Shown here piece by piece: positions 37,550 through 64,000 of a stretch of 64,000 nucleotides of DNA. Position 1 is the stretch's first letter, and each line of letters begins with the position of its first letter. Source of the stretch: Desulforadius tongensis (GTDB lineage: Bacteria > Bacillota > Desulfotomaculia > Desulfotomaculales > Desulfohalotomaculaceae); the NCBI RefSeq assembly GCF_016907915.1, contig NZ_JAFBCW010000012.1:1-64000 (forward strand), written 5' to 3'. Made by a program: the position numbers and the translations under genes. The notes under the pieces were generated by a model. It worked only from the letters and a program-made list of their open reading frames with translations, was not told where the DNA came from and searched no databases.

Positions 37550-40147
37550 CTATCTAGTTTTTGTGATGACTGTTATGTTGCTACCGGTATCATCCCCTCT
37601 GGGTTTTGTGATGACTGTTGTGTTGCTACCGGTATCATCCCCTCTGGGTTTTGTGATGACTGTTATGTTGCTACCGGTATCATCCCCTCTGGGTTTTGTA
37701 ATGACTGTTATGTTGCTACCGGTATCATCCCCTCTGGGTTTTGTAATGACTGTTGTGTTGCTACCGGTATCATCCCCTCTGGGTTTTGTGATGACTGTTA
37801 TGTCGCTACCGGTATCATCCCCTCTGGGTTTTGTGATGACTGTTGTGTCGCTACCGGTATCATCCCCTCTGGGTTTTGTGATGACTGTTGTGTCGCTACC
37901 GGTATCATCCCCTCTGGGTTCCGTTATCGTTATAGGTACTGTTGCAGTTTTACCTTCATATCTCACAGTTATGGTGGTACTGCCTATACTTACGCCTTGT
38001 ACCGTACTGCCAACTACAGTAGCTATACTGGCATTTGCCACTTGATAGGATGCAGAACCGGTTACATCTTTGGTACTCCCATCGGAATAATACGCGGTTA
38101 CTGCCAATGATTGAGTTTTGCCGGTAAGGATATTCACCACAGCCGGGCTTACGGTGATATTTTCCAGTACGGGAGGCGCGTATGCCTCGTTTACCGTTAT
38201 GTTTATGTTTGAAGTTATGCTGTTATAGCTAACAGTAACGGTTGTTGTGCCAGGTGTAATGCCGGTAACTAATCCGCTGGTATTCACGGTGGCTATCGCA
38301 GAATTGTCGGAGGTATATTCCGCTTCGTCGGTTATATCTTTAGTGCTTCCGTCAGAGTAGTTTGCCAGCACGGACAGTGCCGCGGTATTCCCTTCATCAA
38401 TAACAACCGGGTTAGGAGTTACCGTAATGCTTTGAAGGGTTATTGCTGCATTTACCGTTACAGGTACGGTTACTGATTTACCCTCATAGGTAATGGTTAC
38501 TGCTGCACTGCCGGGAGTTATGCCGCTAACTAAACCGTTAACTGACACGGTTGTTATACCTGTATCACTGCTTGTATATTCTGCTTCACCGGTTATATCT
38601 TTAGTGCTTCCGTCAGAGTAATGCGCGGTTACCGTTAGCTGCTGGCTTTTATCTTCAGTAATGTTTACTGCTGTGGGCGTTACGGCGATGCTTTTCAGGG
38701 CCGGATTTACTGTTACAAAACAAGTGTCAGTATACCCACCATCCTTGGTTTTAACCGTAATTACCGCCGTACCCACTCCGACAGGCGTTACTACCCCGTC
38801 TGATACAGATACTACGCTTTCGTCACTACTTGTCCAGGTTACGTCTTTGTTAGTAGTATCTGAAGGTTCTATGGCGACTGTTAATGTTTCAGATGGGCCG
38901 TTTTCTGTGAGAATTAGTTCGTGCTTATTCAAAGTTACCCCAGTCACAGATACAGTTGAAGTGCCGCCAACTTCAGGCGGTCTTGGAAGTCCCCTAAGCC
39001 ATGGGTAGCTTTCACCTTCTTCAATGTCCCAGGTGTTTATAAAATCCCACTGGGCTGCTGTGTACGTATCTTTCTTTTTCATTAATGATGCGGGTTTAGA
39101 AATACCTCCTCCTTCTGACTCAAGACAACCCGATGGTTCGAGAGCCCAGAAGCTATTCTCCACCACAGGATCAGTACCATAATATGTTCCTAGCAAACCA
39201 CCAATACGACTATAATCTTTGCCCAAAACCTTTCCGGTACTGTAACACATGTTGATTTTTATATCTCTATAACCAGAAGGTGAAAACCCCATCAAGCCGC
39301 CGATATCTTTCCAGCCTGAAACCGGTACTATGGCAAAAGAGTTGGACAAATAAAATTCAGCATAATTTCCTATAAACCCTACTATGCCACCAACACTATT
39401 TTCTCCCTTTACGGAACCACCGGTAACATAGCACTCATTAATGGAGGTGTTCTCCACATATCCCACCAAACCTCCAGTTTTGCTGCCGATGTAACTGTAA
39501 TGAATGCCTGAAACATCTACGCCTGTAACGTAACACCGAGAGATTTTTACAGGTTCCCCATAACTATAATTTTCTGAGATCTTTACTAAGCCTGTAGAGT
39601 ATCCTACCATGCCACCGTTACCTACCACACCAATCACAGAACCGTTTTTCACATAGCAATTGATTATTTTAGTTCCCTGTTCCGCACGTCCTACCAGTGC
39701 CCCCACGAAATTACAGCCTTTAATGTCAACATTTTCAAGACCTAAGTTCTTAATCTCACAAAATCTTGTTTCACTGAACAGTCCAATATTTGAGGTTTCC
39801 TTATTAATTGGGTAATGGATATGCAGGTTTCGTATAACATGTCCGTTGCCGTCAAACACTCCCGCAAAAGGTCCCGCAAAAACTACATTTTCATCTCTTT
39901 TACCTATCGGTGTCCAATCCCAACCACTTAAATCAATATCTGCAGTAAGTTTAAAACTAGAAGAGAGATTGTAACGTACCTCATCAAGTTCTTCAGGTGT
40001 CGCAATGAGATACGGATCGTCAGGAGTGCCTGATCCTCCTGAAAAGGCATGGCATGTCCCAGGAACCGCCGCAAAAACCGCCACTGCCAACATGAAAGCG
40101 AAAATCACAAATATTTTATTTTTTGTCACTATATAAAATCCCCCCAA
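37550..40147 (-). CDS. large secreted surface protein with GLUG, Big2 and RGD repeats
   Basis: An 865-residue exported protein. A signal peptide (about 8-35, ending GTCHA) is followed by a start like FSGGSGTPDDPYLIATPEEL, then GLUG-type repeats (about 110-370, e.g. GGLVGYVENTSINECYVTGG). Four bacterial Ig-like Big2 domains (about 400-745, e.g. YSDGSTKDITGEAEYTSSD) come next, then eight 15-residue repeats PRGDDTGSDTTVITK (about 745-863). No sortase motif or membrane anchor is seen. It lies directly downstream of a pilin gene and is probably an adhesin for mating contact or a pilus-associated protein. Confidence 0.85.
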   Translation of the reverse strand: MGGFYIVTKNKIFVIFAFMLAVAVFAAVPGTCHAFSGGSGTPDDPYLIATPEELDEVRYNLSSSFKLTADIDLSGWDWTPIGKRDENVVFAGPFAGVFDGNGHVIRNLHIHYPINKETSNIGLFSETRFCEIKNLGLENVDIKGCNFVGALVGRAEQGTKIINCYVKNGSVIGVVGNGGMVGYSTGLVKISENYSYGEPVKISRCYVTGVDVSGIHYSYIGSKTGGLVGYVENTSINECYVTGGSVKGENSVGGIVGFIGNYAEFYLSNSFAIVPVSGWKDIGGLMGFSPSGYRDIKINMCYSTGKVLGKDYSRIGGLLGTYYGTDPVVENSFWALEPSGCLESEGGGISKPASLMKKKDTYTAAQWDFINTWDIEEGESYPWLRGLPRPPEVGGTSTVSVTGVTLNKHELILTENGPSETLTVAIEPSDTTNKDVTWTSSDESVVSVSDGVVTPVGVGTAVITVKTKDGGYTDTCFVTVNPALKSIAVTPTAVNITEDKSQQLTVTAHYSDGSTKDITGEAEYTSSDTGITTVSVNGLVSGITPGSAAVTITYEGKSVTVPVTVNAAITLQSITVTPNPVVIDEGNTAALSVLANYSDGSTKDITDEAEYTSDNSAIATVNTSGLVTGITPGTTTVTVSYNSITSNINITVNEAYAPPVLENITVSPAVVNILTGKTQSLAVTAYYSDGSTKDVTGSASYQVANASIATVVGSTVQGVSIGSTTITVRYEGKTATVPITITEPRGDDTGSDTTVITKPRGDDTGSDTTVITKPRGDDTGSDITVITKPRGDDTGSNTTVITKPRGDDTGSNITVITKPRGDDTGSNITVITKPRGDDTGSNTTVITKPRGDDTGSNITVITKTR
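37558..37919 (-). repeat. 45-bp minisatellite, eight copies, coding for RGD repeats
   Basis: Eight near-identical 45-bp units encode PRGDDTGS(D/N)(T/I)TVITK. Differences between units are a few single bases, which suggests recent expansion. Loss or gain of units keeps the frame. Confidence 0.95.
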
Positions 40148-40195
40148 ATTTTATAATCCGGAGGGGCCCTGCCAGAGGGGCAAAGCCCCTCCTTT

Positions 40196-40453
40196 TTACT
40201 CGATTACTATGCCGGTAATAGCACCGGTATAACCTGCCTTCAAATTGGTAATTTGTTCGGTTGCAGAAGGCAGACTGGACGGTGTTTGAATTGCCTTGAT
40301 GTCATCCACAGCACCAGCGGACAGGTAACGACTCGCGGCATACAGGCCAAAGCATACGCCGGTTGCACCTAAACCCACCACGGTTGTCCATGCTAGGGAT
40401 TCCGCAGTATATCCTTCCTCGCCCTTAATGAACGCTTTAATTTTTTTAATCAT
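40196..40453 (-). CDS. Flp/Tad-type pilin
   Basis: An 85-residue type IVb pilin: a short basic leader (MIKKIKAFIKGEEG), the cleavage-site pattern EEG-YTAESLAW with Glu at +5, a hydrophobic helix (TVVGLGATGVCFGLYAA), then a variable tail. It is cut by the prepilin peptidase encoded at 42231 and assembled by the Tad machinery. It is the longest of the small pilins here and separated from the rest by a structured leader, so it may be the major subunit. AGGAGG lies 14 nt before the ATG. Confidence 0.8.
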   Translation of the reverse strand: MIKKIKAFIKGEEGYTAESLAWTTVVGLGATGVCFGLYAASRYLSAGAVDDIKAIQTPSSLPSATEQITNLKAGYTGAITGIVIE

Positions 40454-41094: not shown

Positions 41095-41667
41095 CTATTT
41101 TTTAGGAAGCTTGCAAAACCAAATCTTCTTATACAAAACTGTATCTCCAAACATTTTTTTGGCAGGTATCTCAACTGCCGAAATAACTCCCGGTGAATTA
41201 AGGATGATTTTTTTCGAGTTGATGTAAAAGGTTGCAGGAAATTCACCGTCGAAAATTGCGCTCTCTGTTAGCCTATTATCGTATTCGTATATCATGCCGC
41301 CGGCATTTCTGTTCCCGTCGTTTCCGTTATAGACTATTAATTTGAACTTTGGTTTACCAGAAAATGCCGAGTATTTTTTAGGTTCCAGATTGTTGTTCAG
41401 TTCAAGGTTTTTAGCAAGTAGATCCGTAAACACATTGTAAGCCCGTTCCGGGATAATTATTTTTTCTTTATCGATTACATCGTATTGCAATGCAGCTCCT
41501 TCGGTTGCCATTTTAACGGAATTAGCTAAAATTACATCCGCGCTTGTCACGGTCTGCGAAATTAAAACTATGCTTACCAATACCGCAAAAAACAAGACAA
41601 TTGTGGGTAATGCCATTACTATATGCCCGTTTTCTTCTCTAATCTTCCGTCTTACTGCTAATAGCAC
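41095..41667 (-). CDS. TadE/TadF-like pseudopilin
   Basis: A protein of about 190 residues with a single N-terminal hydrophobic helix behind a prepilin-like junction (EENGHIVMALPTIVLFFAVL) and an extracellular domain of about 150 residues. This is the plan of TadE/TadF minor pilins. It overlaps the next TadE-like gene by 29 nt. AGGAG lies nine nt upstream of the GTG at 41667, which I prefer to a TTG three codons earlier. Confidence 0.65.
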   Translation of the reverse strand: MLLAVRRKIREENGHIVMALPTIVLFFAVLVSIVLISQTVTSADVILANSVKMATEGAALQYDVIDKEKIIIPERAYNVFTDLLAKNLELNNNLEPKKYSAFSGKPKFKLIVYNGNDGNRNAGGMIYEYDNRLTESAIFDGEFPATFYINSKKIILNSPGVISAVEIPAKKMFGDTVLYKKIWFCKLPKK

Positions 41668-42082
41668 TGCCCTCAACTCCTATTCTCACTGTTTCACTGC
41701 CCTGGCTTGGGCTGCCGTTTATGACCGTCTTGGCCGTAAAACTATTGAAGTCTTTAGGCATAAACTCTATCCGTAATGTTACTTCTCCCGGGTGATACAC
41801 CGTAGGACTGCTGCCGGTAATTTTAATTGTTTCCGGATCTGCACCCAGGTTAATTAGTTTTTTAATCAATTCCTGCCTGTCAGAAGCAGTCAACCCTCCT
41901 TTTACGGCCATTTTGGACAGCGTTTCGTATTTGTATGCTTCCGCGTGCTGGTAGATTGTCATTACTCCCCAGTATTGGACTGCGGCGAATATCAGAAAAA
42001 CCAACACGGGAATAACCAGAAGGCCGGTAATTATACCCCAGCCGTCTTCTTCCTTTATTAGTCTGCCCAAATAGCTTTTAAT
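41639..42082 (-). CDS. TadE-like pseudopilin
   Basis: About 147 residues: a short leader, KEEDGWGIITGLLVIPVLVF (prepilin-type junction and transmembrane helix), then a domain with SDRQELIKKLINLGADPETI. The start codon is unclear. AAGGAG stands seven nt before an ATT codon at 42082, and a TTG at 42070 is an alternative; longer in-frame starts overlap the pilin gene upstream and lack a ribosome site. The first gene half overlaps the preceding pilin gene, so translation is coupled. Confidence 0.6.
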   Translation of the reverse strand: MKSYLGRLIKEEDGWGIITGLLVIPVLVFLIFAAVQYWGVMTIYQHAEAYKYETLSKMAVKGGLTASDRQELIKKLINLGADPETIKITGSSPTVYHPGEVTLRIEFMPKDFNSFTAKTVINGSPSQGSETVRIGVEGSAISSKTED

Positions 42083-42234
42083 ATTCTTTCTTCTCCTTGT
42101 TCTGTCACATAAAGCACTGCATGTACTATTCCGATTATAATAGGTATTGTGCCAATACCGATAATCGCAGCTCCGATAATCCATTCGAGAATACTCCCCT
42201 CCTCAGAAGTTAAAAAGTGTATTAATTTGTTCAA
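42058..42234 (-). CDS. small Flp-type pilin
   Basis: A 58-residue pilin: NKLIHFLTSEEG-SILEWIIG, with Glu at +5 after the cleavage Gly, then a hydrophobic helix (GAAIIGIGTIPIIIGIVHAV). The start is TTG at 42234, five nt after GGAGGGG and overlapping the stop of the prepilin peptidase gene (TTGA). Confidence 0.75.
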   Translation of the reverse strand: MNKLIHFLTSEEGSILEWIIGAAIIGIGTIPIIIGIVHAVLYVTEQGEERILKAIWAD

Positions 42235-42773
42235 ACCAACCCCTCCTTTCTGGCTAAGCAAAAAACTAGAGCAAAAAATATAATCGGTGCCCCCGTATGA
42301 CTTACAGGCTTTTTATACAGACCTTTAGACGGGTCTTTTACGCCGCTAAAGCCGAGTACAATCTCTGCCTTCATTGCAGATATAGCATTTCCAAATTTAA
42401 AATCACATGCCTTAAATCTTATAAAAAGTGCAGCGGCCAGCAGGCAAACAAAGAAAAATGCCTGGAAATACAAACTTAAAGGCGGCTGTAAACATGCTGC
42501 TATCCCGACAATCAGCTTAATATCGCCTGCCCCTATATACCCTGTTAGCGTAACTGTAGCCCCAATAAATACCGATACTAACACATTAATTAAAAATGCT
42601 TTTGGGCCGCCTACGTATAAAGACCACGACCAGCCTAAAATAATAAGCGGCAGGGTTACAAAATTTTTAATTTTACGCCACCGCAAATCGGTATACACGG
42701 ATACTAACGCACCCAGTATGGATATTATCACTGGCACTGGTAAACTAAAACTGAACGTCGTAAATGTTTCCAA
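42231..42773 (-). CDS. prepilin peptidase (TadV/CpaA type)
   Basis: A 180-residue membrane aspartic protease of family A24: first catalytic Asp in VYTDLRWRKIKN and the second in the GAGDIKL (GxGD) motif, with about six hydrophobic segments. It lacks the N-methylation domain, as usual for TadV/CpaA. It should process all small pilins and TadE-like proteins of both pilus sets, being the only such peptidase in the window. Confidence 0.88.
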   Translation of the reverse strand: METFTTFSFSLPVPVIISILGALVSVYTDLRWRKIKNFVTLPLIILGWSWSLYVGGPKAFLINVLVSVFIGATVTLTGYIGAGDIKLIVGIAACLQPPLSLYFQAFFFVCLLAAALFIRFKACDFKFGNAISAMKAEIVLGFSGVKDPSKGLYKKPVSHTGAPIIFFALVFCLARKEGLV

Positions 42774-42927
42774 TTATGTTCCCTCCTTGATAGCGTAATG
42801 CTGCCAATATGCCAAACAATATACTTGCACCACCAAGTCCGATTATAACTGCGTACGCTAAATACTGAAACATTACGCCCTCCTCATTTAGCAAAAGCTC
42901 TTTTATTTTTTGCTGTAATCCCTTCAT
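42745..42927 (-). CDS. small Flp-like pilin
   Basis: A 60-residue protein with leader KIKELLLNEEG, then VMFQYLAYAVIIGLGGASIL. The position +5 is Gln instead of the usual Glu, which is unusual for pilins and may mark a minor subunit. The ATG at 42927 is chosen over one two codons upstream. It overlaps the peptidase gene by 29 nt. Confidence 0.65.
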   Translation of the reverse strand: MKGLQQKIKELLLNEEGVMFQYLAYAVIIGLGGASILFGILAALRYQGGNIIGNIYDVQF

Positions 42928-42943
42928 ATGCAACTTCCTCTCC

Positions 42944-43747
42944 TTAATTTAATTTGATAGACATAATAGTTTTTGCGATATGATAACCTATAGGCCCCAG
43001 AGTCACCCCTATAAGTGCCAGCCCGGGCAATATCAGATATATTGCCTGAATTACCGGTCTTACCCCTAAGCGACGTTCAACTCGGTATTGTCTGATTCTT
43101 TCCATAGTCTCACTTTCGTGACTTAAGAAACTCGCTACGTTCGCCGCGCCTATCACCACTGCTCTCTGCATTATACCAACCAGCACATCCGCTTCAGGTA
43201 CGTCCAATTCCTTTCTAAATTTCTCCAAAGCCCTGCTGGGACCATAACTCCAGTTGGTTAGGCATCTCTGTAATGGCTTTTTAATCACATCAAGCAAATA
43301 CAAGCTTACCGTTAATGCCTCGTATAAGGAGTAGCCTGCCGACGAATATATACTTATCATTTCGTATAACAGCAGGACTTCACTGGCTTTCTTCTCCTCG
43401 TTAAGTTTTTGAGAAAACCATACATAGGCTTTTTTACCTATATATACAAAAAACCCCCCGGCCAGCGAACAAACAACTGCCCATATCGGGTACTGAAACA
43501 TTACTATATAGCCGACAAACATGCCCATTATCACACTGTAATTTTCTTTTATTACGCTGGTTGTTTTGCTTTTTTTTATATTTTCTTTCTGTGGTATATA
43601 CGGCTTTATATAATATCCAATTAACTTGAATAAAAAAGTGATGGATATTGCCATACAAACAGCCATAAAAGCAGTAATTAAAACATCTGCCCTCAAATAC
43701 GATATATCTTGAAATCTGTCCAGCCAGGTAATTTCCACCTTTACCAC
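42944..43747 (-). CDS. TadC-like pilus membrane protein, system 1
   Basis: A 267-residue type II secretion F-domain protein with hydrophobic helices near the N-terminus and at the C-terminal end. The central T2SF domain includes LLYEMISIYSSAGYSLYEAL and ERRLGVRPVIQAIYLILPGL. TadB and TadC form the inner platform on which the pilus grows. It follows the TadB-like gene after a hairpin (43759-43798). Confidence 0.8.
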   Translation of the reverse strand: MVKVEITWLDRFQDISYLRADVLITAFMAVCMAISITFLFKLIGYYIKPYIPQKENIKKSKTTSVIKENYSVIMGMFVGYIVMFQYPIWAVVCSLAGGFFVYIGKKAYVWFSQKLNEEKKASEVLLLYEMISIYSSAGYSLYEALTVSLYLLDVIKKPLQRCLTNWSYGPSRALEKFRKELDVPEADVLVGIMQRAVVIGAANVASFLSHESETMERIRQYRVERRLGVRPVIQAIYLILPGLALIGVTLGPIGYHIAKTIMSIKLN

Positions 43748-43758
43748 CCCCTAAAAAC

Positions 43759-43798
43759 AAAAGTTCATCCACTTTGAAGAAAAAATGGATGAACTTTT
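43759..43798 (-). terminator. terminator-like hairpin between tadB and tadC of system 1
   Basis: AAAAGTTCATCCA / TGGATGAACTTTT, followed on the minus strand by TTTTGTTTTTAG, overlaps the end of the tadB-like gene. It may reduce read-through into the downstream pilin part of the operon. Confidence 0.7.
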
Positions 43799-44747
43799 AG
43801 AAGTTTACCTTTTTAAGAACGTTGTCTAAAATCAGGCCGACTGTGAATGACAGGAATGCCAGTAAAATAATTATTCTTCCAAAAGGCCTGTTATAAAATT
43901 CCAGCGTAGTATCCGGAAATATGTTAAGAACTATAAAAAAGCCGGGGATAATAAGCATGTTTAAAATAATTCCGATACGCCGCTCCCCGCTCAGCTGGGT
44001 AATATTTTTTTCGATTAATAACCTGTGCATGTTCAGTTTTCTTACGATTCGCGGCAGTACCTTGATTATGTTTGCATCTTTTGTTGCTGCGTATAGTAAC
44101 TGCGCCCACAACTTCCCGTATTCATTGTTGATGTTGGCTGCAAATCGTTCAAAGGCCCTTTTAGGTGCTTTGCTCGCGTTCAAATCGTTCACGCACTTTA
44201 TGATGTGTTTCCTCAAGGGGTTGCTAACACCTTCGGCGGCTCTAGCCAGGGATTCCCTTAAGTTTCTTGTCAGTTCAAACTCCACGCCAAATAGTTGTAG
44301 CGCAGCGGGTAATTGTTCATTTATTTTCCTTTTATGCTTTCTGGTTGCCCGGTTTAAATACATAAGCGGCAGGATTATAAAAAGCACCAGTGCCGTTACA
44401 GACATTAGAATATCCTGGAATATGAAATATACAAGAAACGTTCCAACCAGAGGCATTATAACCGTTATCAACATGTACTTGTACGTGCTGATATTGAAGC
44501 CTGTATTACTTAAGCCCTTGTCTATACGGTTACTGTAAGCATTCAGCAGCCGGATGCTGTTTTTTGGTACATATAGATTTCTTGCTACTTCCGGCATGGC
44601 CAGTATTCTATCTCGTTCTTTTTTCCATAAAAGAACTTTATTAACTGTCGCACCTGCCATAGATAAAAAAAGGTTCAATGTAAGAATAAGCAATACTGTA
44701 AAAGAAATAAATATCACGCCGTTCAAGAGCAACTCATTCCCATGCAC
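43797..44747 (-). CDS. TadB-like pilus membrane protein, system 1
   Basis: A 316-residue T2SF-domain membrane protein with an N-terminal helix (GVIFISFTVLLILTLNLFLS), two central helices (about 95-135), a cytosolic domain (LPAALQLFGVEFELTRNLRE) and two C-terminal helices. It directly follows the TadA ATPase gene, as in tad operons, and forms the platform together with TadC. Confidence 0.8.
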   Translation of the reverse strand: MHGNELLLNGVIFISFTVLLILTLNLFLSMAGATVNKVLLWKKERDRILAMPEVARNLYVPKNSIRLLNAYSNRIDKGLSNTGFNISTYKYMLITVIMPLVGTFLVYFIFQDILMSVTALVLFIILPLMYLNRATRKHKRKINEQLPAALQLFGVEFELTRNLRESLARAAEGVSNPLRKHIIKCVNDLNASKAPKRAFERFAANINNEYGKLWAQLLYAATKDANIIKVLPRIVRKLNMHRLLIEKNITQLSGERRIGIILNMLIIPGFFIVLNIFPDTTLEFYNRPFGRIIILLAFLSFTVGLILDNVLKKVNF

Positions 44748-46183: not shown

Positions 46184-46953
46184 TAACTGCCACCTGCCCT
46201 TTTACAAAAGTAACTCGTTCCATTACCAATTGCAGTTATAACGTTTTCCACATCCTTATTTTTTATCTTTATAACTGCAACGGCAGTCATAGAAAGAGTT
46301 GATTTCTTTTCTCTTATTGCTTCTTCCATTGCTTCTTCCGGCGCATTAAGCAGTGCCTGTTTGTATATACTCACATTTCTTTTGTCCAACACATCAATAA
46401 TAACTGCCTGCTCTGCCACCAACTGCGCCCGCTCTACTTCATCACTGGCATCGGTACTTTTCCTGGTGGGTAGGTCTGAAGACTGCCTGTCATTTATCCA
46501 GTATATATCTACCACGTCGCCAGGGCGTATTTTAAATCCTACAGCTCTTATAGCGTCTACGGGAATACCCACCAGGCCTTCATCTTCCTCTACAATCAGG
46601 GAACTGTCGGATAGCTTTTTAAGTAATATCTGTTCGTTTTTATACAGTACGGTATTTGCTCTTTTACCGATTACTTCTTTGGGGTTTTTGGCAGTACCCG
46701 ACAGGCTGCTGCCCAGAGGTATCTCGATGTACTTAATATCTTCGGAAGTGATCACAGAATAGGGCATTATGTCTCTTCCTGCCACCAATACCTGTTCTGT
46801 CGGCCTGTTGTCTATAAGGTAATCCCGGAGTTTATAGGTTCCCAAACCGGCAAGGGTTAAAGAAAACACTATTACCATAAAACCTGCCAGCCTCTTATTT
46901 AAAAAAGAGGTTTTGTTAAACTTCCCTTTATTGGCATTTATTGATATTTTCAT
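46183..46953 (-). CDS. CpaB/RcpC-like SAF-domain protein, system 1
   Basis: A 256-residue protein with one N-terminal transmembrane helix (about 25-45) and an SAF domain (VLVAGRDIMPYSVITSEDIK) followed by VGIPVDAIRAVGFKIRPGDV. In Gram-negatives CpaB supports the secretin; here no secretin is expected, so the role is likely in the cell-wall part of the pilus. It shares plan but little sequence with the second copy at 50372. Confidence 0.8.
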   Translation of the reverse strand: MKISINANKGKFNKTSFLNKRLAGFMVIVFSLTLAGLGTYKLRDYLIDNRPTEQVLVAGRDIMPYSVITSEDIKYIEIPLGSSLSGTAKNPKEVIGKRANTVLYKNEQILLKKLSDSSLIVEEDEGLVGIPVDAIRAVGFKIRPGDVVDIYWINDRQSSDLPTRKSTDASDEVERAQLVAEQAVIIDVLDKRNVSIYKQALLNAPEEAMEEAIREKKSTLSMTAVAVIKIKNKDVENVITAIGNGTSYFCKRAGGS

Positions 46954-52167: not shown

Positions 52168-52374
52168 TTAGAAGCCTAGTTCACTTTTAATATAGTCAAT
52201 CATATCACTAAATAAGTCTGTTGCAGCACCTGGTGCTATACCCAGCAAACCTAAGATAATGGCAACTGCAATTACTGTTGTACCAAGCGTCCATGCCGCT
52301 GCTTTAAGGTCGCCGCGTTCATTGGCAAGGATCTGCTTTGCTTGTTTTATTCTTAACTGTAATACTTTTTTCAT
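52168..52374 (-). CDS. small pilin, system 2
   Basis: A 68-residue protein: basic leader (KKVLQLRIKQAKQILANERG), then DLKAAAWTLGTTVIAVAIIL and a short amphipathic end. The leader Gly followed by a hydrophobic helix fits a type IVb prepilin, although the residue at +5 is not Glu. It is probably the main pilin of set 2. Confidence 0.7.
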   Translation of the reverse strand: MKKVLQLRIKQAKQILANERGDLKAAAWTLGTTVIAVAIILGLLGIAPGAATDLFSDMIDYIKSELGF

Positions 52375-56090: not shown

Positions 56091-57758
56091 TTACTGCGCC
56101 CTGCTGTTTACACCAGAGCCGTTTACAAGCAGCACACCGCTTACAGAATCGCTTACCGTTCCGGATTTGGTTACTGTTTCATACCATGTATGGCAATGGC
56201 GATGCCCATTACTGGTGTGGCAGCTTCTATGTCTAACTTTATATTGGTAAACATAGTGTATAGTGTAATTCGCAGTTAAAGTGTATTTCTTCGGGTATTT
56301 TGCCATTAGCTTATCTTTTATGGGATTGTATATTCTGGCCCCGTCCATCGCCCAGTCTTCCTGGAAGGTAGCTGTCGCTTTGTGCCCGTTGGGGTTCATG
56401 TTTATTGTCGTTGTTCCTTTGGGCGGCAGCGGGTTACCGAATGTAAATCTCGGGTTTTTCTTCGGGTATGTTATACTTGCCGAAGTTATCTCCCATGATA
56501 CCAGCTTTCCTTTAGGCGGCGTTGGTGCACTGGGTTTTAATGTCGCAGTCACCCAGTCAGTCCATTTGGCCGTATTTGCCGGCCTGGTGATAGTTTTATC
56601 TTGGCTTACCGCCTGGAATGTTAACTTACTGTTTGTTACTACCGGAGCTAAAGGTTTCAGTATATTAATTATCGCTTCATCACGGTTGTTCTCCCAGTTT
56701 ATATCTTCACTTGTTACCGGGTTAACCCTGACTATTAGTGTTGTTCCTTCACTTTGGGCCGTAACTTTAAACTTATACGCCTTTTCTTCTCCCGGCTTAA
56801 ATTCAATTACGCCGTTTGACGGCAGGCTGTCAGCAGGGTTTATGGCTGTCAACCTTACAGGCCATTCATTGCCGCCAACTTCATGTACCAGCGTCAGTTT
56901 TGCAGTTTCAGGCTTTGTATGCCCCTCTGCCAGCTTAAATCTGACTGTTCCTTCTACCGGTGCCCCCGGCTGTATGTCGTTATATTCCACCTGGTCAAAA
57001 ACTACTGAAAAATCAGGGGCGGACTGGGCTACCGGTGCCAGCGGTATGGTTAAGTACCAAACACTACCGCCTGATTGGTGCCACATACGCCCCATACCCC
57101 AGGTGTATTGAGTTGGCGGCACTAATACATGTACATATTCATGCCAGGGCTTGTCGTCATTAGGGTTAAAGGGTATGGGCACTCTATCAGCGCTTTCAGA
57201 TTTCGCGTATGCTTTCAAACCTTCGATTATACTGTCGCGAAGTTCTGGTTTGCCGTCAAAATCATTTTCATGAATTAGAGGCTCTCCTCTGGCTTTTAAA
57301 GAGGCTTCAACATCTGGATTTTTCCACGGCCATTTAATCCAATTCCTGCTGTTGATGCATCCCCCAGCCCAGTTATCATGGCGGAAGAAAATATTTGTAA
57401 ATGCTTCGTTGTTTATTGTGTAACCCAAATAACGGTGGTTTCCTGTATCGGAGTCAAAATCAAAAGGTTTGCCATACACAAATATTCGCCTGTTTGCCCA
57501 CAATTGGTGTTCTTTGTCAATTTTGTCGTTAATTCTATATTTGTTACCCATACTGTATTCTCTAAAATAATCTATTACCCCAAATCTTGCTTTCAGTTCA
57601 TCATTTGCCTCTTTTAAAGCCTCGTCTATGTTTTGCGGCGGATTTTGCGGCGGCAAACTAACAGGAGGCTCCGTTGAGCCTCCTGTATCAGCCATAACAG
57701 CATTCGTAAATGTTAACAGCATAAAAACAGAAAATATAACTGTAAATATTCTTCGCAT
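56091..57758 (-). CDS. large exported protein of unknown function
   Basis: A 555-residue protein with a signal peptide (about 1-23, ending NAVMA). The N-terminal half (about 55-250) is Trp-rich without a recognised family. The middle (about 255-370) looks like a CARDB-type Ig fold (LKPLAPVVTN), and the C-terminal region has a His/Cys-rich loop (HRSCHTSNGHRHCHTWYE). No anchor motif was found. It may be a pilus-tip or surface protein; the His/Cys loop suggests metal binding. Confidence 0.7.
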   Translation of the reverse strand: MRRIFTVIFSVFMLLTFTNAVMADTGGSTEPPVSLPPQNPPQNIDEALKEANDELKARFGVIDYFREYSMGNKYRINDKIDKEHQLWANRRIFVYGKPFDFDSDTGNHRYLGYTINNEAFTNIFFRHDNWAGGCINSRNWIKWPWKNPDVEASLKARGEPLIHENDFDGKPELRDSIIEGLKAYAKSESADRVPIPFNPNDDKPWHEYVHVLVPPTQYTWGMGRMWHQSGGSVWYLTIPLAPVAQSAPDFSVVFDQVEYNDIQPGAPVEGTVRFKLAEGHTKPETAKLTLVHEVGGNEWPVRLTAINPADSLPSNGVIEFKPGEEKAYKFKVTAQSEGTTLIVRVNPVTSEDINWENNRDEAIINILKPLAPVVTNSKLTFQAVSQDKTITRPANTAKWTDWVTATLKPSAPTPPKGKLVSWEITSASITYPKKNPRFTFGNPLPPKGTTTINMNPNGHKATATFQEDWAMDGARIYNPIKDKLMAKYPKKYTLTANYTIHYVYQYKVRHRSCHTSNGHRHCHTWYETVTKSGTVSDSVSGVLLVNGSGVNSRAQ

Positions 57759-57773
57759 ATTTAATTAACCTCC

Positions 57774-58751
57774 CTATATATCGCTTAAAACTCCCGGTTC
57801 CCAGACTACAATATTTATAAGATAACTACCCGCTGGAGCACCTGCCTTAATTGTCTGACCGTCAATATGGAAATATTTAAGCGGTACATCATCAAACCTG
57901 TCTTTTTTCTTACTAACATAGTCAATAATCATATCTGCGTTTTCTTTGCCGAATTTACTTGCCAGAATACTGCGTGCTTTTTCCAGCTGCTGCTCCAATG
58001 CTACTCCGTTTCTTTCCAACACATCCAAAATAATAACAATTTCAGTTCTGGTTTCCGAGTCAGGCCCTTCAATTCCATAGTAAGTTTTACCCCCATAAAA
58101 AGGCACATCATCAGGTACAGCAAACCCTCCAACCATATGAGTACCAGGCTGGTTTTCCTCTTGTACTACTTTCTCTTGTACTACTTTCTCCACTTTCCCG
58201 CCTATGTACTCTATCACGTTGCTGATGTCGGGCTTTAGCTCACCCTTGGGATAAGCTATCACTACGCCGTTCTTGCTATCCCACTCTACTGTATACCCCA
58301 ATGCTTCCGCTACAAAACGGGCGGGCAGATATGTCCTGCCGGTCTTTAAAATTGGAGCCACGTCTATTGCTCTTGCTTTACCGTTTTCGATTATCTGTTT
58401 CTTCCCGATTACCAGCTCTGCGGAAAATTCTCCCCGCTTCAGGGAAGCCTTCTGCTTTACCCCGTCCCATTCAATGTTGTTATCGTTCACGCCCAGGGCA
58501 TTGCCCAGGTAACGTACGGGCACAAATGTTCTGGATTGCTCAATAAAGGGTACTGCGTCCATCTTTATTCCCGGTGTTTGGTTGTTTACAAAATATTCGT
58601 TCTTACCAACTACGAATACAACACTTTTTACCAGTTTACCCTGTTCGTACACGTCTATTTTTTCTCCCGCTTTCACAGTACCCGGCATTACGGCCAGAAA
58701 AGCCGCCAGGCAGCACATTAATATAACGCTTTTCAATACTATTTTTTTCAT
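57774..58751 (-). CDS. secreted protein with copper amine oxidase N-terminal domains
   Basis: A 325-residue protein with a signal peptide (about 1-28) and two stalk-type copper amine oxidase N-terminal repeats (PFIEQSRTFVPVRYLGNALG; PILKTGRTYLPARFVAEALG). These domains are common in Firmicute cell-surface proteins and are not enzymes by themselves. The C-terminal part (about 215-325) is not recognised. It is 15 bp upstream of the 555-residue gene, so both are probably made together. The 168 nt before it (58752-58919) hold nothing notable. Confidence 0.8.
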   Translation of the reverse strand: MKKIVLKSVILMCCLAAFLAVMPGTVKAGEKIDVYEQGKLVKSVVFVVGKNEYFVNNQTPGIKMDAVPFIEQSRTFVPVRYLGNALGVNDNNIEWDGVKQKASLKRGEFSAELVIGKKQIIENGKARAIDVAPILKTGRTYLPARFVAEALGYTVEWDSKNGVVIAYPKGELKPDISNVIEYIGGKVEKVVQEKVVQEENQPGTHMVGGFAVPDDVPFYGGKTYYGIEGPDSETRTEIVIILDVLERNGVALEQQLEKARSILASKFGKENADMIIDYVSKKKDRFDDVPLKYFHIDGQTIKAGAPAGSYLINIVVWEPGVLSDI

Positions 58752-58919: not shown

Positions 58920-59588
58920 TTATAAAATTTCCAATAAAACTCTTTCCCATTCTCTCTTCCCGGCGCTCAAAGCATAAACCTCTCCTTCTTGAGCAGCCTT
59001 GATATAAGTGGTATAGTCTACTTTAATCTCCACCCGGCGTTGGCATATTTGTTTTGGTATATCCATATCACCTGTAACAAGTAACAGTTCTACAGTGGGT
59101 TTCTCAACCTTTATTCTTACTAACTCCTTCAATTGCTGAGCAATCAATTCCCCTTCAAACGGGTTACCGGTATAGGGAATGACTAGCACATCCGCTTCCG
59201 CTATGGCTGCGTATGCTGGCGGGTATTCGAAGTCCCTGCCTGCGTTTACTATTATCACGCTCTGGTCTTGTTCCTTAACCAGTTGAATAATTTTCCTGAA
59301 CAGTTCAACGGTTTCCGCTGGTTCTCCAAAATCCGGCGTGCCTATATTAGTTAGCTTATTGCCGGCCGGCAGGTATTCTACACCCCATTTCATCCTTCTA
59401 ATCATTTTACCGGCCAGTTCCGGAGTAAGGCTTTTACCGAGCGTCATTATCCCCGCGTCTTTTTTATTAAAATCTTCAATACTGCTGGAATGTTTGATCC
59501 CAAACCACCCATCCAGTTCAGGGCAGGCAAGATCATAATTCAATAATATGGTGTTGTAGTGCTCAACCGCAGCAACAGCTAGGTTCAA
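58920..59588 (-). pseudogene. ATPase half of a TadZ/CpaE-like protein, after an in-frame TGA
   Basis: This reading frame carries the rest of a MinD-like ATPase (NLAVAAVEHYNTILLNYDLA; DQSVIIVNAGRDFEYPPAYA; EADVLVIPYTGNPFEGELIA) but not its P-loop. It is in exactly the same frame as the upstream half (59601-60293), separated only by the TGA at 59601-59603. Its TTG at 59588 has no ribosome site. So it is either the silent part of a broken gene or the second part of a recoded one. Confidence 0.7.
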
Positions 59589-59600
59589 GGCTGCTGCAGT

Positions 59601-60293
59601 TCATGTAGCACCTGTGGGACCCCAGACGGTTACAACTTTGCTGTCTTCATAGTTATAATTATTATTGTCTTTTCTTTCCAGTAAATCTCTAACTGCTGCT
59701 TTTGTTTCATCAGTTATTTGCTGCAGTTTATTGTTTATTGAGTTTATGGGATTTTTTATCTTTAATTTTGTTAAGCCTTTTTTTGCAGGGTTTAGTTCTT
59801 CTCTTCGTACATGCTTATGTTTTTCTGGTTGTTGCCCGGTGGTATCCTCGTTTTTTTCTTCGCCTATTATTGGAAGTGATATATTTGCCCGCTGTAATTT
59901 ATCAATTATTTCTTTTGGTATGTCTCCCAGTTTCCCGGGCCTTAATAGTTTCTCTATAATGACAACAGGTCTAACAGGATCGTAAACGAAATCGTATACC
60001 CCGTACGGAACTAATTTTTCAATTAACTCTTGAGCTTTCATTAATGATAAGTCACCGGGTAAAGCTACCACTCTAATCCCTTTTTCTCTCATGGTTCTGA
60101 TAAGTTCAACTATGTCGTCATCTCCGCTTAGGGCAGGAGATATGATAACCGTATCTGCGCCGGTTTCTTTAATCATCTTATTTACAATGCTTCGGTGGTA
60201 ACTGGTTCCAACAGTTTCTATGTTGTTTTCCGGTAACATTCTTGATAAGTCGTTATCTAGCTTTTCAATGCCGGTAGCAATTAAAACTTTCAA
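59601..60293 (-). pseudogene. receiver-like half of a TadZ/CpaE-like protein, ending in a TGA at the P-loop
   Basis: A 230-residue frame: receiver-like domain (KVLIATGIEKLDNDLSRML; VVALPGDLSLMKAQELIEKL), a Lys-rich linker, then KVVTVWGPTGAT followed by TGA. This is where a Walker A motif (GPTGA-GKT-like) should continue, and the frame goes on past the TGA with TAAALNLAVAAVEHYN. The protein belongs with the TadZ/CpaE group of the second pilus set. The TGA removes the ATP site unless it is read through. Confidence 0.7.
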
Positions 60294-60296: not shown

Positions 60297-62036
60297 TCAT
60301 CTCTCCTTTGTGCTTTGTAGTATAAGTACCGGATTTATCCAATCGTTTTTATTTAAGTCAAATACACTGAAATGCAGGTGTGGGCCCGTGGAAACTCCAG
60401 TGCTGCCCACGTTTCCGATTTTTGTTTCCGATTGGACGGATTGTCCTTTTCTAACTGTAATTAAAGATAAATGTCCATAAAGATATTTGTGCTGGCCGTC
60501 CTGAACTATTACAGTTTTGCCGTATCCACCTTTCCACCCCGCATAAATGACCACTCCGGAGGATACTGATACTACCGGTGCGCCCTTTGGCGCGCGAATG
60601 TCAATACCATTATGGAATTTCTTTGTTTTAAAAATTGGGTGTATTCTTAAACCGAACGGAGAAGAAATATCATAATATCCGGGTACGGGCCAGATGTTGT
60701 TTGCTCTTTTAAAGGCTTCCGCCATTTCCCAGATAGGACCGGCATATTCTTTTAGGCATCTTTCTTCTGCATCATCTCCTTTATAGCCACCGTAAAATGT
60801 TAAAACTTCAAGCGTATCCTCTTTCCAACCTCCTTCCCAGTCAACATTATTAAGGCCTAAATTTTTCAACATATATGCTCCTGTCAAAATTTGCGCCCTG
60901 GGGTTGTCCCTGTCCATTTCCGGGTCAAACCCCAGCAGCTTTGAATAATGTTCCCAGTTAGACGGGGTAAGCTGCATCAAACCGTAACAGCCTGTACTTG
61001 AATTTTCAGCCTGCGGGTTAAAACTGCTTTCTTTAAAAGCCACCGCAGCCAAAAACCACCATGGAATACCGTATTTATCTTCTGCTTCTTTGAACAGCGG
61101 CATAAGCTCTGGGGGAACCATGGCAGCGGAAATGAAATATTTAATTTCTAAATTATCAAGCAACCACTCCAGCCATTCTTTTTGTTCATTAAATGCGTTG
61201 CCGGCTTCCCAGACCGCTGTTCGGGCCAGCGATACTTCATCATCTCTTGCTACCCTGTATTCATCGACAATCCAATCTTCCAACCTCTGCCACTTGTTGG
61301 GAAGTATTTGCTGGACGTCTTTCAATTCTTCTTTGGTAATTGTTACCCTGCTCTTGCCGCTGCCGTATGTCCTGGTTACCCATTCATAGTGGTACTGGTA
61401 GTGTCCTTCAATGGTGTATGCCTCCACAAGCAGGTACTGTACAGTTACTTCCGTTTCGCTTTCTCCTTCCTCGTTGGTTGAAGTGGTGTAAATATTAGAT
61501 TGCTTGTAATAAAAATAAGGATGCAGCGCTTCAGCCACATTCTCCTGATCGGTTATCTCATCCTGTCCGAAGTTATATGCCCTGTAAAGGCTGGCAGCGT
61601 GAAGCTGCCCCCATTTGAGTGCCAAATCCGTGTCGGAGCCGTACTGGTCAGCCAGCATATTCAGTTTAGTAACGCCCCTGCCGGGATAATACGGGTTGTC
61701 TGGAGTGGATTCGTACTTTTCACCGCCCGGTTCCGCCGGTTTTTTATTTATCAACCAGGTATCCTTTACATTGTATTTGTCACAATACTTCTGGTATTTT
61801 TCCCGGGCTTCATTATCACTTTCTGCATCTATTTGGGGTACTCCGGCCAGAGCGCCCAGCTGGGGCATAGCCGAATATACAGCGGCTACCAGCATCGCAA
61901 GTATGAAGAAAAATATAATAGCAACAATTATATACGGAATAAAGGGTTTTAACGCTCTCAACAGCAGTCGTGTCAGTATAGCTGCCATTTTTCTGGCCTG
62001 CTCTACCGCTTCTTTTTCAATTTTTTGAGTGTCCAT
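60297..62036 (-). CDS. VirB1-like lytic transglycosylase fused to M23 endopeptidase
   Basis: A 579-residue peptidoglycan hydrolase anchored by one N-terminal helix (PYIIVAIIFFFILAMLVAAV). It has a goose-lysozyme/SLT domain (about 310-430, KESSFNPQAENSSTGCYGLM) with the catalytic Glu in FKESSF, and a LytM/M23 domain (about 460-575; HNGIDIRAPKGAPV and GPHLHFSVF with zinc ligands). The pair cuts glycan and peptide and opens the cell wall for the conjugation channel, as VirB1/TcpG proteins do in Gram-positive systems. Confidence 0.9.
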   Translation of the reverse strand: MDTQKIEKEAVEQARKMAAILTRLLLRALKPFIPYIIVAIIFFFILAMLVAAVYSAMPQLGALAGVPQIDAESDNEAREKYQKYCDKYNVKDTWLINKKPAEPGGEKYESTPDNPYYPGRGVTKLNMLADQYGSDTDLALKWGQLHAASLYRAYNFGQDEITDQENVAEALHPYFYYKQSNIYTTSTNEEGESETEVTVQYLLVEAYTIEGHYQYHYEWVTRTYGSGKSRVTITKEELKDVQQILPNKWQRLEDWIVDEYRVARDDEVSLARTAVWEAGNAFNEQKEWLEWLLDNLEIKYFISAAMVPPELMPLFKEAEDKYGIPWWFLAAVAFKESSFNPQAENSSTGCYGLMQLTPSNWEHYSKLLGFDPEMDRDNPRAQILTGAYMLKNLGLNNVDWEGGWKEDTLEVLTFYGGYKGDDAEERCLKEYAGPIWEMAEAFKRANNIWPVPGYYDISSPFGLRIHPIFKTKKFHNGIDIRAPKGAPVVSVSSGVVIYAGWKGGYGKTVIVQDGQHKYLYGHLSLITVRKGQSVQSETKIGNVGSTGVSTGPHLHFSVFDLNKNDWINPVLILQSTKER

Positions 62037-62091: not shown

Positions 62092-62901
62092 CTAGTTTTT
62101 CGTTTTTGAATTTGTCCAATTGGCTACGGCACCGGTTGCTCGCGAACCCAGGCTGGCTGCCCTGCTTCCCAGGGGTGACAGGGCCAGTGCCGAGGCTACC
62201 CGCGTGGTGGCTGCAACCCTGTTATTAGTACCGCTGATGTCCTGCATGGCCTGCCAGAATGTCTGTCCGTTCTTTTTTCTGGTTTTTATTTCCTGAACTA
62301 AATTATATGATGTTGATGCAAAACCGGTTGCTGACTTGCCGGCTGCCGCGTATATTCCGGCCATCATCGGCGCCACCTCCGGTACTGCAAATGAAGATGC
62401 TGCTCCCACTTTGGCCATTGTGCCGGCAGCTTTGTTACCGGCCTGGCCTGATATGTTGATTATGTCGTCCAGTTTGCGCTGCCCTTTTTGGGATATTGAC
62501 GACATATCCCGGCCCGCAACGGTACCATTATTTGCTGTATTCATGTATTGTTTGGTTGTCCCGCCGGCTGTATCGCTGGCTGTATTTGGTGAATTGGCAT
62601 TTATATTTCCAATACCCGGATTAGGGCCGCCTGGATTGCCTGGATTAGAGCCTGGAGAATTGGGCATCTTTGAAACTATGTTTCCCGAACCAGAACTCCC
62701 GGTAGGTAAACTGACCATTCCTCTCTTTTTCATAAGTCCAAAGGTTGCTCCGATGGCTCCCAGTCCAATCATGGCCCACTTATCTTCATCCACCGTACCG
62801 ACTCTAGCTACCAGCTTCATGAATATGGAACTGAGCATTTTGCTGACCGGAATAACGGTTAGCAGCATGAAAAAAGTTTCCCAAACTGTTATTTTTGCCA
62901 T
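62092..62901 (-). CDS. membrane protein with Gly/Asn/Pro-rich linker, T4SS-associated
   Basis: A 269-residue protein: two hydrophobic segments near the N-terminus (about 8-32 and 44-60), a Gly/Asn/Pro/Ser-rich linker (about 68-115), and an Ala-rich C-terminal part (AAGTMAKVGAASSFAVPEVA). The ATG overlaps the stop of the VirB6-like gene by one base. The plan resembles the second part of TrbL/VirB6 proteins, and it may be a detached C-terminal portion of that component. Family unproven. Confidence 0.6.
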   Translation of the reverse strand: MAKITVWETFFMLLTVIPVSKMLSSIFMKLVARVGTVDEDKWAMIGLGAIGATFGLMKKRGMVSLPTGSSGSGNIVSKMPNSPGSNPGNPGGPNPGIGNINANSPNTASDTAGGTTKQYMNTANNGTVAGRDMSSISQKGQRKLDDIINISGQAGNKAAGTMAKVGAASSFAVPEVAPMMAGIYAAAGKSATGFASTSYNLVQEIKTRKKNGQTFWQAMQDISGTNNRVAATTRVASALALSPLGSRAASLGSRATGAVANWTNSKTKN

Positions 62902-63902
62902 TACTTAACCCCCCAGCTGCCGGACAGCAGTACCGCCAGGAATGAGGCTATCACAACACACAGACCGAGTATGAAAAGACCGATAAATGCCTTAATCAAT
63001 CCTTCTTTTGCTTTCGCCCTTTCTTCCTGTTTTCTGGCTATGATGATTCTGATTCCCAGGACAACCAGAACCGCCACGCAAATACTGCTGGCAAAAGCAG
63101 CAAAGAATACTCCGATCTGCACCAAACCGCTGGAAAACCACGCCGTGTCCACTTTACCAGCCACCTTACCCACGCCGGTGGCAATACTAAGAAATATTCC
63201 CAGAGACATGGCGTGGGCGGATTGAAGGAATATGGTCTGAATTATCTCCGCCACCCATATTTCAAGCACCTGACGTTCGGCTGTAAGCATCCATATCCAA
63301 GCAATAATCGGAGTTACTACTATATTTGCAGTAACAACCCATTTGCGAATGGTATAAACCGCATTAAAATAAACATCAAACGCCACCATAGAGAGGTTTA
63401 AAAGTGCATCGGCAAAGAGGTTTCCTGTCTGAATACTGGATAGCAGGGAGCTGCCGAATATGTTTGTCTGGCCGTTAAATATGAGTTGATCTAAACTTTT
63501 TAAACCGAAAAGTTCATTGAACATAATAATAATTGCATTAAACGGGGCAGCAATGATTTGTTCAAACATCCCCGCCGCCTGGCTCATAACCGGTTGTTCC
63601 AGTTCCGGGCTTGTGGCAAAGGAGTTGAGTAATTTGCCACAAATCCATACAAACCCATCGTTGATTCCTGACAGGATGGTAATAAAAACCGGAGCCAGAG
63701 CCACCAACCCCATCGCCAGCACCGACCTCTGAACATCTTCTATAAACGATGCCCTGATGCCGGGGTTCATCGCCGACCGCATGTAACTGTAGCCGGATCT
63801 GACAATTAACAGGAGTAGAAAACCTCCACCAACGGAAGTAAGTACCGCATACCAGAACATCATAACCTGCCATTGCTCTTCCGTAAACATTGACGGGTGC
63901 AT
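62901..63902 (-). CDS. VirB6/TrbL-like conjugation membrane protein
   Basis: A 333-residue polytopic membrane protein with about six to seven helices, including WYAVLTSVGGGFLLLLIVRS, LAMGLVALAPVFITILSGIN and ANIVVTPIIAWIWMLTAERQ. The last is the hallmark region of VirB6/TrbL channel proteins in Gram-positive conjugation systems. It should form the inner-membrane DNA channel together with VirB4, whose gene is expected further upstream. Confidence 0.8.
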   Translation of the reverse strand: MHPSMFTEEQWQVMMFWYAVLTSVGGGFLLLLIVRSGYSYMRSAMNPGIRASFIEDVQRSVLAMGLVALAPVFITILSGINDGFVWICGKLLNSFATSPELEQPVMSQAAGMFEQIIAAPFNAIIIMFNELFGLKSLDQLIFNGQTNIFGSSLLSSIQTGNLFADALLNLSMVAFDVYFNAVYTIRKWVVTANIVVTPIIAWIWMLTAERQVLEIWVAEIIQTIFLQSAHAMSLGIFLSIATGVGKVAGKVDTAWFSSGLVQIGVFFAAFASSICVAVLVVLGIRIIIARKQEERAKAKEGLIKAFIGLFILGLCVVIASFLAVLLSGSWGVK

Positions 63903-63908
63903 ATACGC

Positions 63909-64000
63909 TCACCTCGCCAGCACAGCTTCAGGGTCTGAGCGCAGGAAGTGTTCTTCAAAAGGAAAACCTTTAAAGGTTACTACTGCGCTTTCCATACCAG
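63909..64000 (-). CDS. C-terminal end of a gene running off the window
   Basis: An open frame enters from the right edge and ends at TGA 63909-63911 with ESAVVTFKGFPFEEHFLRSD and PEAVLAR. It ends seven bp before the VirB6-like gene and is on the same strand, so it belongs to the conjugation operon. Too little is visible to name it. Confidence 0.6.
   Translation of the reverse strand, partial: GMESAVVTFKGFPFEEHFLRSDPEAVLAR

Follow-up and report, generated by a model that had tools for sequence, protein, structure and literature searches.

Type IV pili on Gram-negative conjugative elements are known, and conjugation in Gram-positive bacteria is usually described without such pili. The ICE PAPI-1 of Pseudomonas aeruginosa carries its own type IV pilus for mating (PMC5297154), and in the IncI conjugative plasmids TP114 and R64 (thin pilus) a type IV pilus selects the recipients (PMC9045228). 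Among Gram-positive bacteria, the linear plasmids of Cutibacterium acnes combine tad genes with VirB4- and TcpC-like genes, the link of their Tad pili to conjugation being unproven (PMC5696575), and the circular plasmid pCCELLA01 of Carboxydocella (CP028515) has VirD4, VirB4-like and M23 genes, CuAO and CARDB surface proteins and Tad. The Gram-positive MPF-FATA systems (CD1110 and CD1115 families) contain VirD4, VirB4, PrgI and an SLT/M23 hydrolase. As for Desulfotomaculum reducens, which belongs to the same bacterial group as the genome studied here, four tad operons and Flp-like pilins lacking Tyr+6 are described by Imam 2011 (PMC3244431). An earlier note on the present DNA called Tad systems normally chromosomal, which is too strong, Tad being the type IV filament most often found on plasmids (PMC6668835).

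Two questions are open in Gram-positive conjugation, namely how DNA passes through the thick wall and by what means monoderm donors, lacking a conjugative pilus, keep hold of their recipients (PMC12857230, in whose main text the word Tad is absent). A family with a Tad pilus genetically joined to a T4SS array, to which the locus of Desulforadius tongensis described below belongs, makes both questions testable.

The element and its secretion genes

The locus is best explained as an integrated conjugative-type element whose family is found across Desulfotomaculum-like Firmicutes. It begins at about 17 kb and runs on past 75 kb, the contig ending at 75325, before the right border; the features lying in the window, the whole analysed stretch of 64,000 nucleotides, are given in Table 1. 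The tRNA linkage claimed by the earlier note is borne out: a tyrosine recombinase, with the R..HxxR..GH..Y residues visible in its sequence and with 62-63% identical counterparts in two related elements (G054 and G056), abuts a 3' fragment of tRNA-Pro(CGG) at 16984-17040. This fragment (98% identical over 60 nt to an intact tRNA-Pro(CGG) of a genome of the same genus) is a single copy in the assembly, and the pairing of integrase and presumed attachment site that marks an ICE is found at the left end only. No exact direct repeat of at least 18 bp was detected between the flanks searched in G054, G056 and a third element, G061, and in G054 and G056 ARAGORN placed no tRNA next to int1. When empty sites were sought, alignments in same-family genomes were confined to the tRNA and short pieces and did not take in the flanks, and a flank search in the sister species of G056 gave no clean one.

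The VirD4, VirB6-like and SLT+M23 proteins and TopB named in the earlier note are all present. That note suggested seeking VirB4 and a relaxase beyond position 64000. A short way past this point are VirB4, PrgI and a TrbC/VirB2 pilin; no relaxase was found by Pfam in the ORFs scanned in this element up to the contig end. VirB4 is split into two genes here and its nearest family is CD1110. In total, VirB4, VirD4, VirB3/PrgI, VirB6 (by topology and synteny) and VirB1 of a Gram-positive FATA-type T4SS are found. Thirty genes on one strand, from 67.66 kb (beyond the window) down to 41.1 kb with a maximum gap of 168 bp, make up a co-directional array joining VirB2/PrgI/VirB4/VirB6/VirB1 to both Tad sets, and the proximal set is embedded in the T4SS array, with genes overlapping. 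Pfam also recognised no relaxase among the unmatched ORFs scanned in G054 and G056, thus self-transfer is put forward here as a proposal. Tyrosine recombinases can serve as relaxases, e.g. TcpM of pCW3, and the recombinase at 17084 may possibly do so.

Table 1. Features of the element within the window, in order of position
Feature	Position	Strand	Evidence
tRNA-Pro(CGG), 3' part; presumed left attachment site	16984..17053	-	Rfam RF00005
Tyrosine recombinase (integrase, or possibly TcpM-like relaxase)	17084..18211	-	NCBIfam NF040815 E 4.6e-10, below cut-off
DUF3854 protein (primase-like), kept across element family	19091..20191	-	PF12965; synteny
VirD4 coupling protein, CD1115 family	26762..28813	-	NF045973 357 bits (cut-off 250); PF02534
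TopB-type topoisomerase	29165..31540	-	PF01131; synteny
ParM/Alp-type actin (plasmid segregation)	33519..34496	-	PF17989, PF21522
HD-GYP-type phosphodiesterase (putative c-di-GMP breakdown)	36651..37280	-	PF13487; GYP motif
Large surface protein, Big_2 domains; candidate adhesin	37550..40147	-	PF02368
Flp-like small pilin candidate	40196..40453	-	...KGEEG^YTAESLAW... then hydrophobic segment
TadE-like pseudopilin	41095..41676	-	N-terminal EENG^ + hydrophobic helix; family member in other elements
TadE-like pseudopilin	41639..42184	-	28.8% identical to annotated TadE of pCCELLA01, E 3e-8
TadV-type prepilin peptidase	42231..42773	-	PF01478; GAGD active-site motif visible
Flp-like small pilin candidate, distal set	42745..42933	-	NEEG^VMFQYLAYAV...
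TadC1, distal platform protein	42944..43747	-	Position after TadB1; weak profile match to TadC2, prob 65%
TadB1, distal platform protein	43797..44747	-	AlphaFold model; Foldseek prob 1.00 to EpsF/PilC/GspF cytoplasmic domains
TadA1, distal CpaF-type ATPase	44765..46183	-	PF00437, 102 bits
CpaB1	46183..46953	-	PF08666, PF16976
CpaE/TadZ-like ATPase	46965..48014	-	PF13614
CpaE/TadZ-like ATPase, conserved beside proximal set	48081..49673	-	PF01656; in 21/24 proximal-set segments
Terminator-like hairpin between T4SS/proximal-Tad block and distal block	49748..49780	-	13-bp stem + T run
GGDEF diguanylate cyclase	49764..50357	-	PF00990; GGEEF motif
CpaB2	50372..51124	-	PF08666; in 22/24 segments
Conserved membrane protein, proximal set	51117..51701	-	In 22/24 segments
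TadE-like protein, proximal set	51723..52145	-	In 22/24 segments
Small pilin without Glu+5, proximal set	52168..52374	-	Glycine cleavage-type site, hydrophobic helix, C-term FGF/FGI
Pseudopilin-like protein	52403..53008	-	EEG^LAEL + hydrophobic helix; in 19/24 proximal-set segments
TadC2, proximal platform protein	53005..53841	-	AlphaFold pLDDT 86; weak Foldseek match SpoIIIAB/EpsF
TadB2, proximal platform protein	53845..54627	-	T2SSF: PF00482 match in 18/19 family members
TadA2, T4SS-proximal CpaF-type ATPase	54620..55987	-	PF00437, 35 bits
Secreted CARDB-like protein, recurrent partner	56091..57758	-	31% identical to pCCELLA01 annotated CARDB protein, E 1.7e-34
Copper amine oxidase N-domain surface protein	57774..58751	-	PF07833
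CpaE-like gene, receiver + ParA domains; interrupted by in-frame TGA 59601-59603	58920..60293	-	
VirB1-type SLT + M23 cell-wall hydrolase	60297..62036	-	PF01464, PF01551
VirB6-like membrane protein	62901..63902	-	Multi-TM; PF18895 at C-terminus; synteny directly after VirB4
VirB4 C-terminal end; gene runs on to contig position 65627	63909..64000	-	PF19044, NF045971

Two Tad gene sets and their conservation

Two complete and divergent Tad (type IVc pilus) gene sets, running in the same direction as the Gram-positive T4SS, are confirmed. Both TadA genes of the earlier note are real: each has the TadA/CpaF-type Walker A, Asp box, Walker B Glu and His box, the best PDB relatives of both are CpaF, and CpaF outscores VirB11 for TadA1 (154 versus 48 bits) as well as for TadA2 (102 versus 41 bits). 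The tree places proximal TadA and distal TadA in two supported clades of their own, distinct from chromosomal TadA and from VirB11. That one TadA set has become a VirB11-like motor of DNA transfer, which the earlier note had considered, is not supported by descent for either, since sequence and tree group them with CpaF/TadA and leave VirB11 outside.

Each TadA has retained platform proteins, a CpaB and pilins of its own. Two TadB/TadC pairs are present, both TadB being identified as platform proteins by T2SSF and Foldseek and the TadC more weakly, TadC1 by its position and a profile match; one TadV, two CpaB, TadE-like proteins and small Flp-like pilins complete the sets, and three CpaE-like genes occur in the island besides. 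The small pilins have a glycine cleavage-type site and a hydrophobic helix but lack the Glu+5/Tyr+6 of Flp, and nearly all proximal sets read have the same kind of small pilin at the corresponding place. Since Gram-positive Flp-like variants without Tyr+6 are known (PMC3244431), we regard the sets as a divergent form of Tad. A search of the genome's contigs with the TadA2 protein gave one locus only.

Regarding distribution, a class-wide search gave the same 113 genomes as an order-wide one. The T4SS-proximal TadA clade occurs in 22 of these 113 and in 6 sampled genomes outside the class, where in most cases a second TadA from a different clade accompanies it, and 26 TadA pairs within the class lie at most 32 kb apart. 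Other genomes, complete ones included, also show the gene order T4SS - proximal Tad - CpaE - distal Tad - Alp - TopB - VirD4, which rules out an assembly chance or a one-off. The central claim of the earlier note, two separate Tad machines on a conjugative-type element, therefore stands: many related elements carry such a pair, arranged alike with respect to their T4SS, and no Tad gene was seen to fall outside the ICE as far as the contig, which covers the left border, allows.

Viewed from VirB4, TadA is found within 40 kb at 22 of the 45 VirB4 places in the class, and two TadA at 10 of them. The 20 closest VirB4 relatives include eleven whose contig runs on for at least 25 kb downstream; by a tally made by hand, TadA is present there in 9/11 and two TadA in 6/11. 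The other two (G001 and G065) have no TadA that was found near VirB4, so a T4SS of this type does not strictly require Tad. Compared over the same 13 elements, proximal TadA has a median identity of 56% and distal TadA of 37%, and over 10 elements the value is 32% for VirB4 and 57% for the proximal TadA there; VirB4 is less well conserved than the proximal Tad. The distal set differs from element to element and is sometimes missing (e.g. G054), and the G061 copy is decayed, with a broken proximal TadA. That the elements are mobile is indicated by their patchy distribution, by the presence of several copies in a genome and by their spread across classes. Such a Tad-T4SS family could also explain the several tad operons in Desulfotomaculum-type genomes (PMC3244431).

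Possible roles of the Tad sets

The array, with its layout kept in close relatives, points to pilus-assisted conjugation in these bacteria. We favour as probable a T4SS built with two Tad pili that serve mating contact, of which one is bound to the T4SS and the other can be exchanged. The Gram-positive T4SS (VirB4, PrgI, VirB6, VirB1, VirB2-like pilin, VirD4) would be built together with both Tad machines. The proximal set (TadA2-B2-C2, its own small pilin, CpaB2) would most likely form a pilus or short pseudopilus in the mating apparatus, bringing or holding the recipient, and the distal set (TadA1-B1-C1, TadV, Flp-like pilins, TadE, Big_2 protein) most likely an exchangeable adhesive pilus that widens partner choice, while the element-borne GGDEF and HD-GYP enzymes may switch assembly via c-di-GMP. 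From the gene content, the co-directional array, the conserved pairing and order, the CpaF-type ATPases and the tRNA-fragment boundary, all observed, we infer transfer, pilus formation, division of labour and c-di-GMP control. The lack of a recognised relaxase among the ORFs scanned, the position of the right border beyond the contig, the proximal pilin without Glu+5/Tyr+6, the in-frame stop in one CpaE gene and the two well-covered VirB4 relatives near which no TadA was found are counted against this proposal.

It is unlikely that the proximal Tad is integral to the DNA-transfer channel, as a piston or conduit through the thick wall with TadA2 in VirB11's job. Such a role would agree with its place directly behind the T4SS genes, with the hairpin that parts both from the distal set, with the unusual pilin without Glu+5, and with a TadA2 about 57% alike retained beside VirB4s only about 32% alike; moreover, Gram-positive T4SS have no VirB11, and how they get across the wall has yet to be settled (PMC12857230). 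However, TadA2 is CpaF-type and has retained TadB/TadC partners, CpaB and pilin, and 2 of the 11 well-covered T4SS relatives have no Tad found nearby. We are similarly doubtful that proximal Tad and T4SS make one hybrid machine, in which a pseudopilus would span the wall, the CpaF-type ATPase would supply VirB11's force, and the second, swappable Tad pilus would select partners.

That the Tad sets are cargo of benefit to the host (adhesion, biofilm or surface sensing) and unneeded for transfer is quite improbable, as the proximal set lies among the T4SS genes, with genes overlapping, has changed less than VirB4 and is retained in elements that have diverged, where cargo usually varies; in its favour are the frequent plasmid carriage of Tad (PMC6668835), the variable or absent distal set, and the C. 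acnes pili with their unproven link to conjugation (PMC5696575). We hold it very unlikely that the island has never been, or is no longer, self-transferring, being decayed or mobilisable, with T4SS and Tad working as a protein secretion or adhesion organelle. The lack of a recognised relaxase, the stop codon in a CpaE gene and the decayed G061 copy would accord with this, but the remaining T4SS and Tad genes are open, VirD4 scores above the CD1115 cut-off, the distribution indicates mobility, and a tyrosine recombinase can act as relaxase.

Comparison with known systems

The island differs from its nearest counterparts in several respects. MPF-FATA systems share its VirD4, VirB4, PrgI and SLT/M23 hydrolase and are not described with Tad genes in the literature searched, so the island differs by Tad and by its split VirB4; a dual-Tad version in monoderms was likewise not found described there. 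The passages of PMC3244431 draw no tie between the tad operons of D. reducens and conjugative elements. Much of the gene content of pCCELLA01 is found again in the island, but the plasmid has one Tad set, whose CpaF is 27-28% identical to both island TadA, and is typed as mobilizable with a MOBC relaxase. The C. acnes plasmids, Gram-positive and with tad beside VirB4- and TcpC-like genes as here, have one Tad set and an FtsK/TraB-type translocase. PAPI-1 resembles the island as an ICE with its own mating pilus, yet is Gram-negative, with a single type IVb pilus, no Tad genes and another T4SS. TP114 and R64 are also Gram-negative and have one pilus, whose adhesin is switched by a shufflon, where the island has a second machine instead.

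Transfer genes and the two Tad sets

The window covers C12:1-64000, part of a draft genome of 2.58 Mb, and the contig ends at 75325. The two TadA ATPases claimed in the earlier note are both real, TadA2 in the set proximal to the type IV secretion system (T4SS) and TadA1 in the distal one. The same note called for the sequence beyond 64000 in order to find VirB4 and a relaxase. The final 11 kb of the contig encode VirB4 (TraG P-loop domain), PrgI and a TrbC/VirB2-type pilin, together with a D12 methylase and a recombinase of the XerC type; no relaxase was found in the element up to the contig end, nor among the ORFs scanned in the related elements G054 and G056. The relaxase gene may lie past the contig end, or the tyrosine recombinase at 17084 could be the relaxase by analogy with TcpM, a reported precedent for such a recombinase in this role. 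VirB4 is split into two genes, as it is in G056, G060 and G061.

From 67657 to 41095, 30 genes, several of them overlapping, all occupy the minus strand, none separated from the next by more than 168 bp, in the order VirB2-like, PrgI, VirB4, VirB6, SLT/M23, CpaE, two surface proteins and proximal Tad, followed by GGDEF, two CpaE, CpaB1, distal Tad, TadV and TadE. Two terminator-like hairpins suggest that the T4SS and proximal Tad may share a single transcript, with the distal set transcribed separately.

Features of the element and of the rest of the window (L002 is the contig sequence just past 64000)
Feature	Position	Strand	Remark
Cobalamin riboswitch	6691-6877	minus	118 bits
FeoB ferrous iron transporters (two)	13604-15771; 10804-12855		one is two overlapping genes
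tRNA-Pro(CGG), 3' fragment	16984-17040		left end of element
Tyrosine recombinase	17084-18211
VirD4	26762-28813		NCBIfam CD1115 conjugation family, 357 bits (cut-off 250)
Terminator-like hairpin	43758-43799	minus	consensus match only
TadA1	44765-46183	minus	distal
Terminator-like hairpin	49748-49780	minus	consensus match only
TadA2	54620-55987	minus	proximal
CpaE-like gene	58920-60293	minus	in-frame TGA at 59601-59603
VirB4, N- and C-terminal parts	L002:1778-2566; L002:2-1627	minus

Both Tad sets look complete. The best PDB match of TadA1 and TadA2 is CpaF (154 and 102 bits), and VirB11 scores far lower (48 and 41 bits). T2SSF membership holds for 18 of 19 members of the TadB2 family, TadB1 aligns with TadB2 at 96.8% probability, and the predicted TadB1 model resembles EpsF, PilC and GspF domains, folds to which TadC2 shows a weak match; TadC1 is identified chiefly from its position. 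A CpaB and small pilins occur in each set, and there is a single TadV for the whole element. In nearly all elements read, the proximal pilin locus encodes the same type of small protein, with a cleavage-type glycine, a hydrophobic helix and a C-terminal FGF or FGI, and without the Glu+5 typical of classical pilins.

The CpaE-like gene is a single ORF in most other elements aligned. Its TGA aligns with the lysine of a degenerate P-loop in several relatives. At -18 kcal/mol (z about -2.2 to -2.6), the RNA hairpin directly after the TGA is stable, and the host genome has a tRNA-Sec gene; selenocysteine is a less likely explanation than gene decay.

Recurrence, conservation and mobility

Gene maps of fetched segments show this gene order again in G056, G061 and G063, whose genomes are complete or nearly so, and also beyond the class in G470 and G191. 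Within the class there are 26 TadA pairs spaced by at most 32 kb, and TadA lies within 40 kb of VirB4 at 22 of 45 VirB4 places, the chance expectation being estimated at a few per cent (given some 1.5 TadA places in each genome of roughly 3 Mb). By hand count, the contig continues for 25 kb or more downstream in 11 of the 20 closest VirB4 relatives; TadA follows in nine of these and two TadA in six, and in the other two, G001 and G065, no TadA was found near VirB4.

Median pairwise identity is 56% for proximal and 37% for distal TadA in the 13 elements with both sets, and 57% for proximal TadA and 32% for VirB4 in 10 elements. Picking the segments partly by their TadA2 match biases proximal identity upward; the VirB4-based counts are free of this bias. 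By these identities the proximal Tad is better conserved than the adjacent T4SS motor, which argues against passing cargo. G054 has the proximal set only.

In a TadA tree built by a quick method, with some long branches, proximal TadA2 belongs to a single clade of 24 and distal TadA1 to a single clade of 15. In another group of elements (G017, G063 twice, G026 twice) a proximal TadA closer to chromosomal TadA is paired with a different distal clade; the two-Tad layout has thus been put together, or reassembled, from different parts. The proximal TadA ORF at G026:C1:228802 and G026:C33:452792 has 767-771 aa, about 320 aa above usual, a possible fusion. The pair of CuAO-domain and CARDB-like proteins (57774/56091) is doubled in G061, G057 and G026:C33, which suggests swappable surface cassettes.

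The tRNA-Pro(CGG) fragment, present in one copy in the assembly, is nearly identical to relatives' intact tRNA and adjoins the end of the tyrosine recombinase gene; ARAGORN makes no call there, which would fit loss of the 5' part. On its right side the element runs past the contig end. The proximal TadA clade occurs in 22 of the 113 genomes of the class (46-70% identity), in two copies in some, and in six sampled genomes outside it (55-62%), and is absent from both remaining genomes of the genus; this is the pattern of a mobile element. Among named records the closest is an uncultured Desulfotomaculum MAG (L042). G061 holds a second copy of the element (C1:2430001-2490000) that looks decayed, with the proximal TadA broken in two and a distal TadA ORF extending to 759 aa.

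Possible roles of the pili

On PAPI-1 and TP114, element-borne type IV pili grip and select recipients (PMC5297154, PMC9045228), and in the simplest reading the pili here probably serve likewise for recipient contact. After such contact the SLT/M23 hydrolase would open the wall locally and VirD4/VirB4 would deliver the DNA; the exchangeable distal pilus with its Big_2 surface protein would determine the range of partners, and pilus assembly would be adjusted by the GGDEF and HD-GYP enzymes that the element itself encodes. A stronger reading, hypothetical here, would place a Tad pseudopilus within the transfer channel itself, which is attractive because VirB11 is missing from Gram-positive T4SS and their route through the wall is an unsolved question (PMC12857230).

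No earlier description of a monoderm dual-Tad T4SS element was found in the openly licensed literature searched. The small circular Carboxydocella plasmid pCCELLA01 (CP028515.1; L121, L211) carries VirD4, a VirB4-like protein, M23 and one Tad set; with that single set, where the present element has two, it is a related and simpler form of this arrangement.
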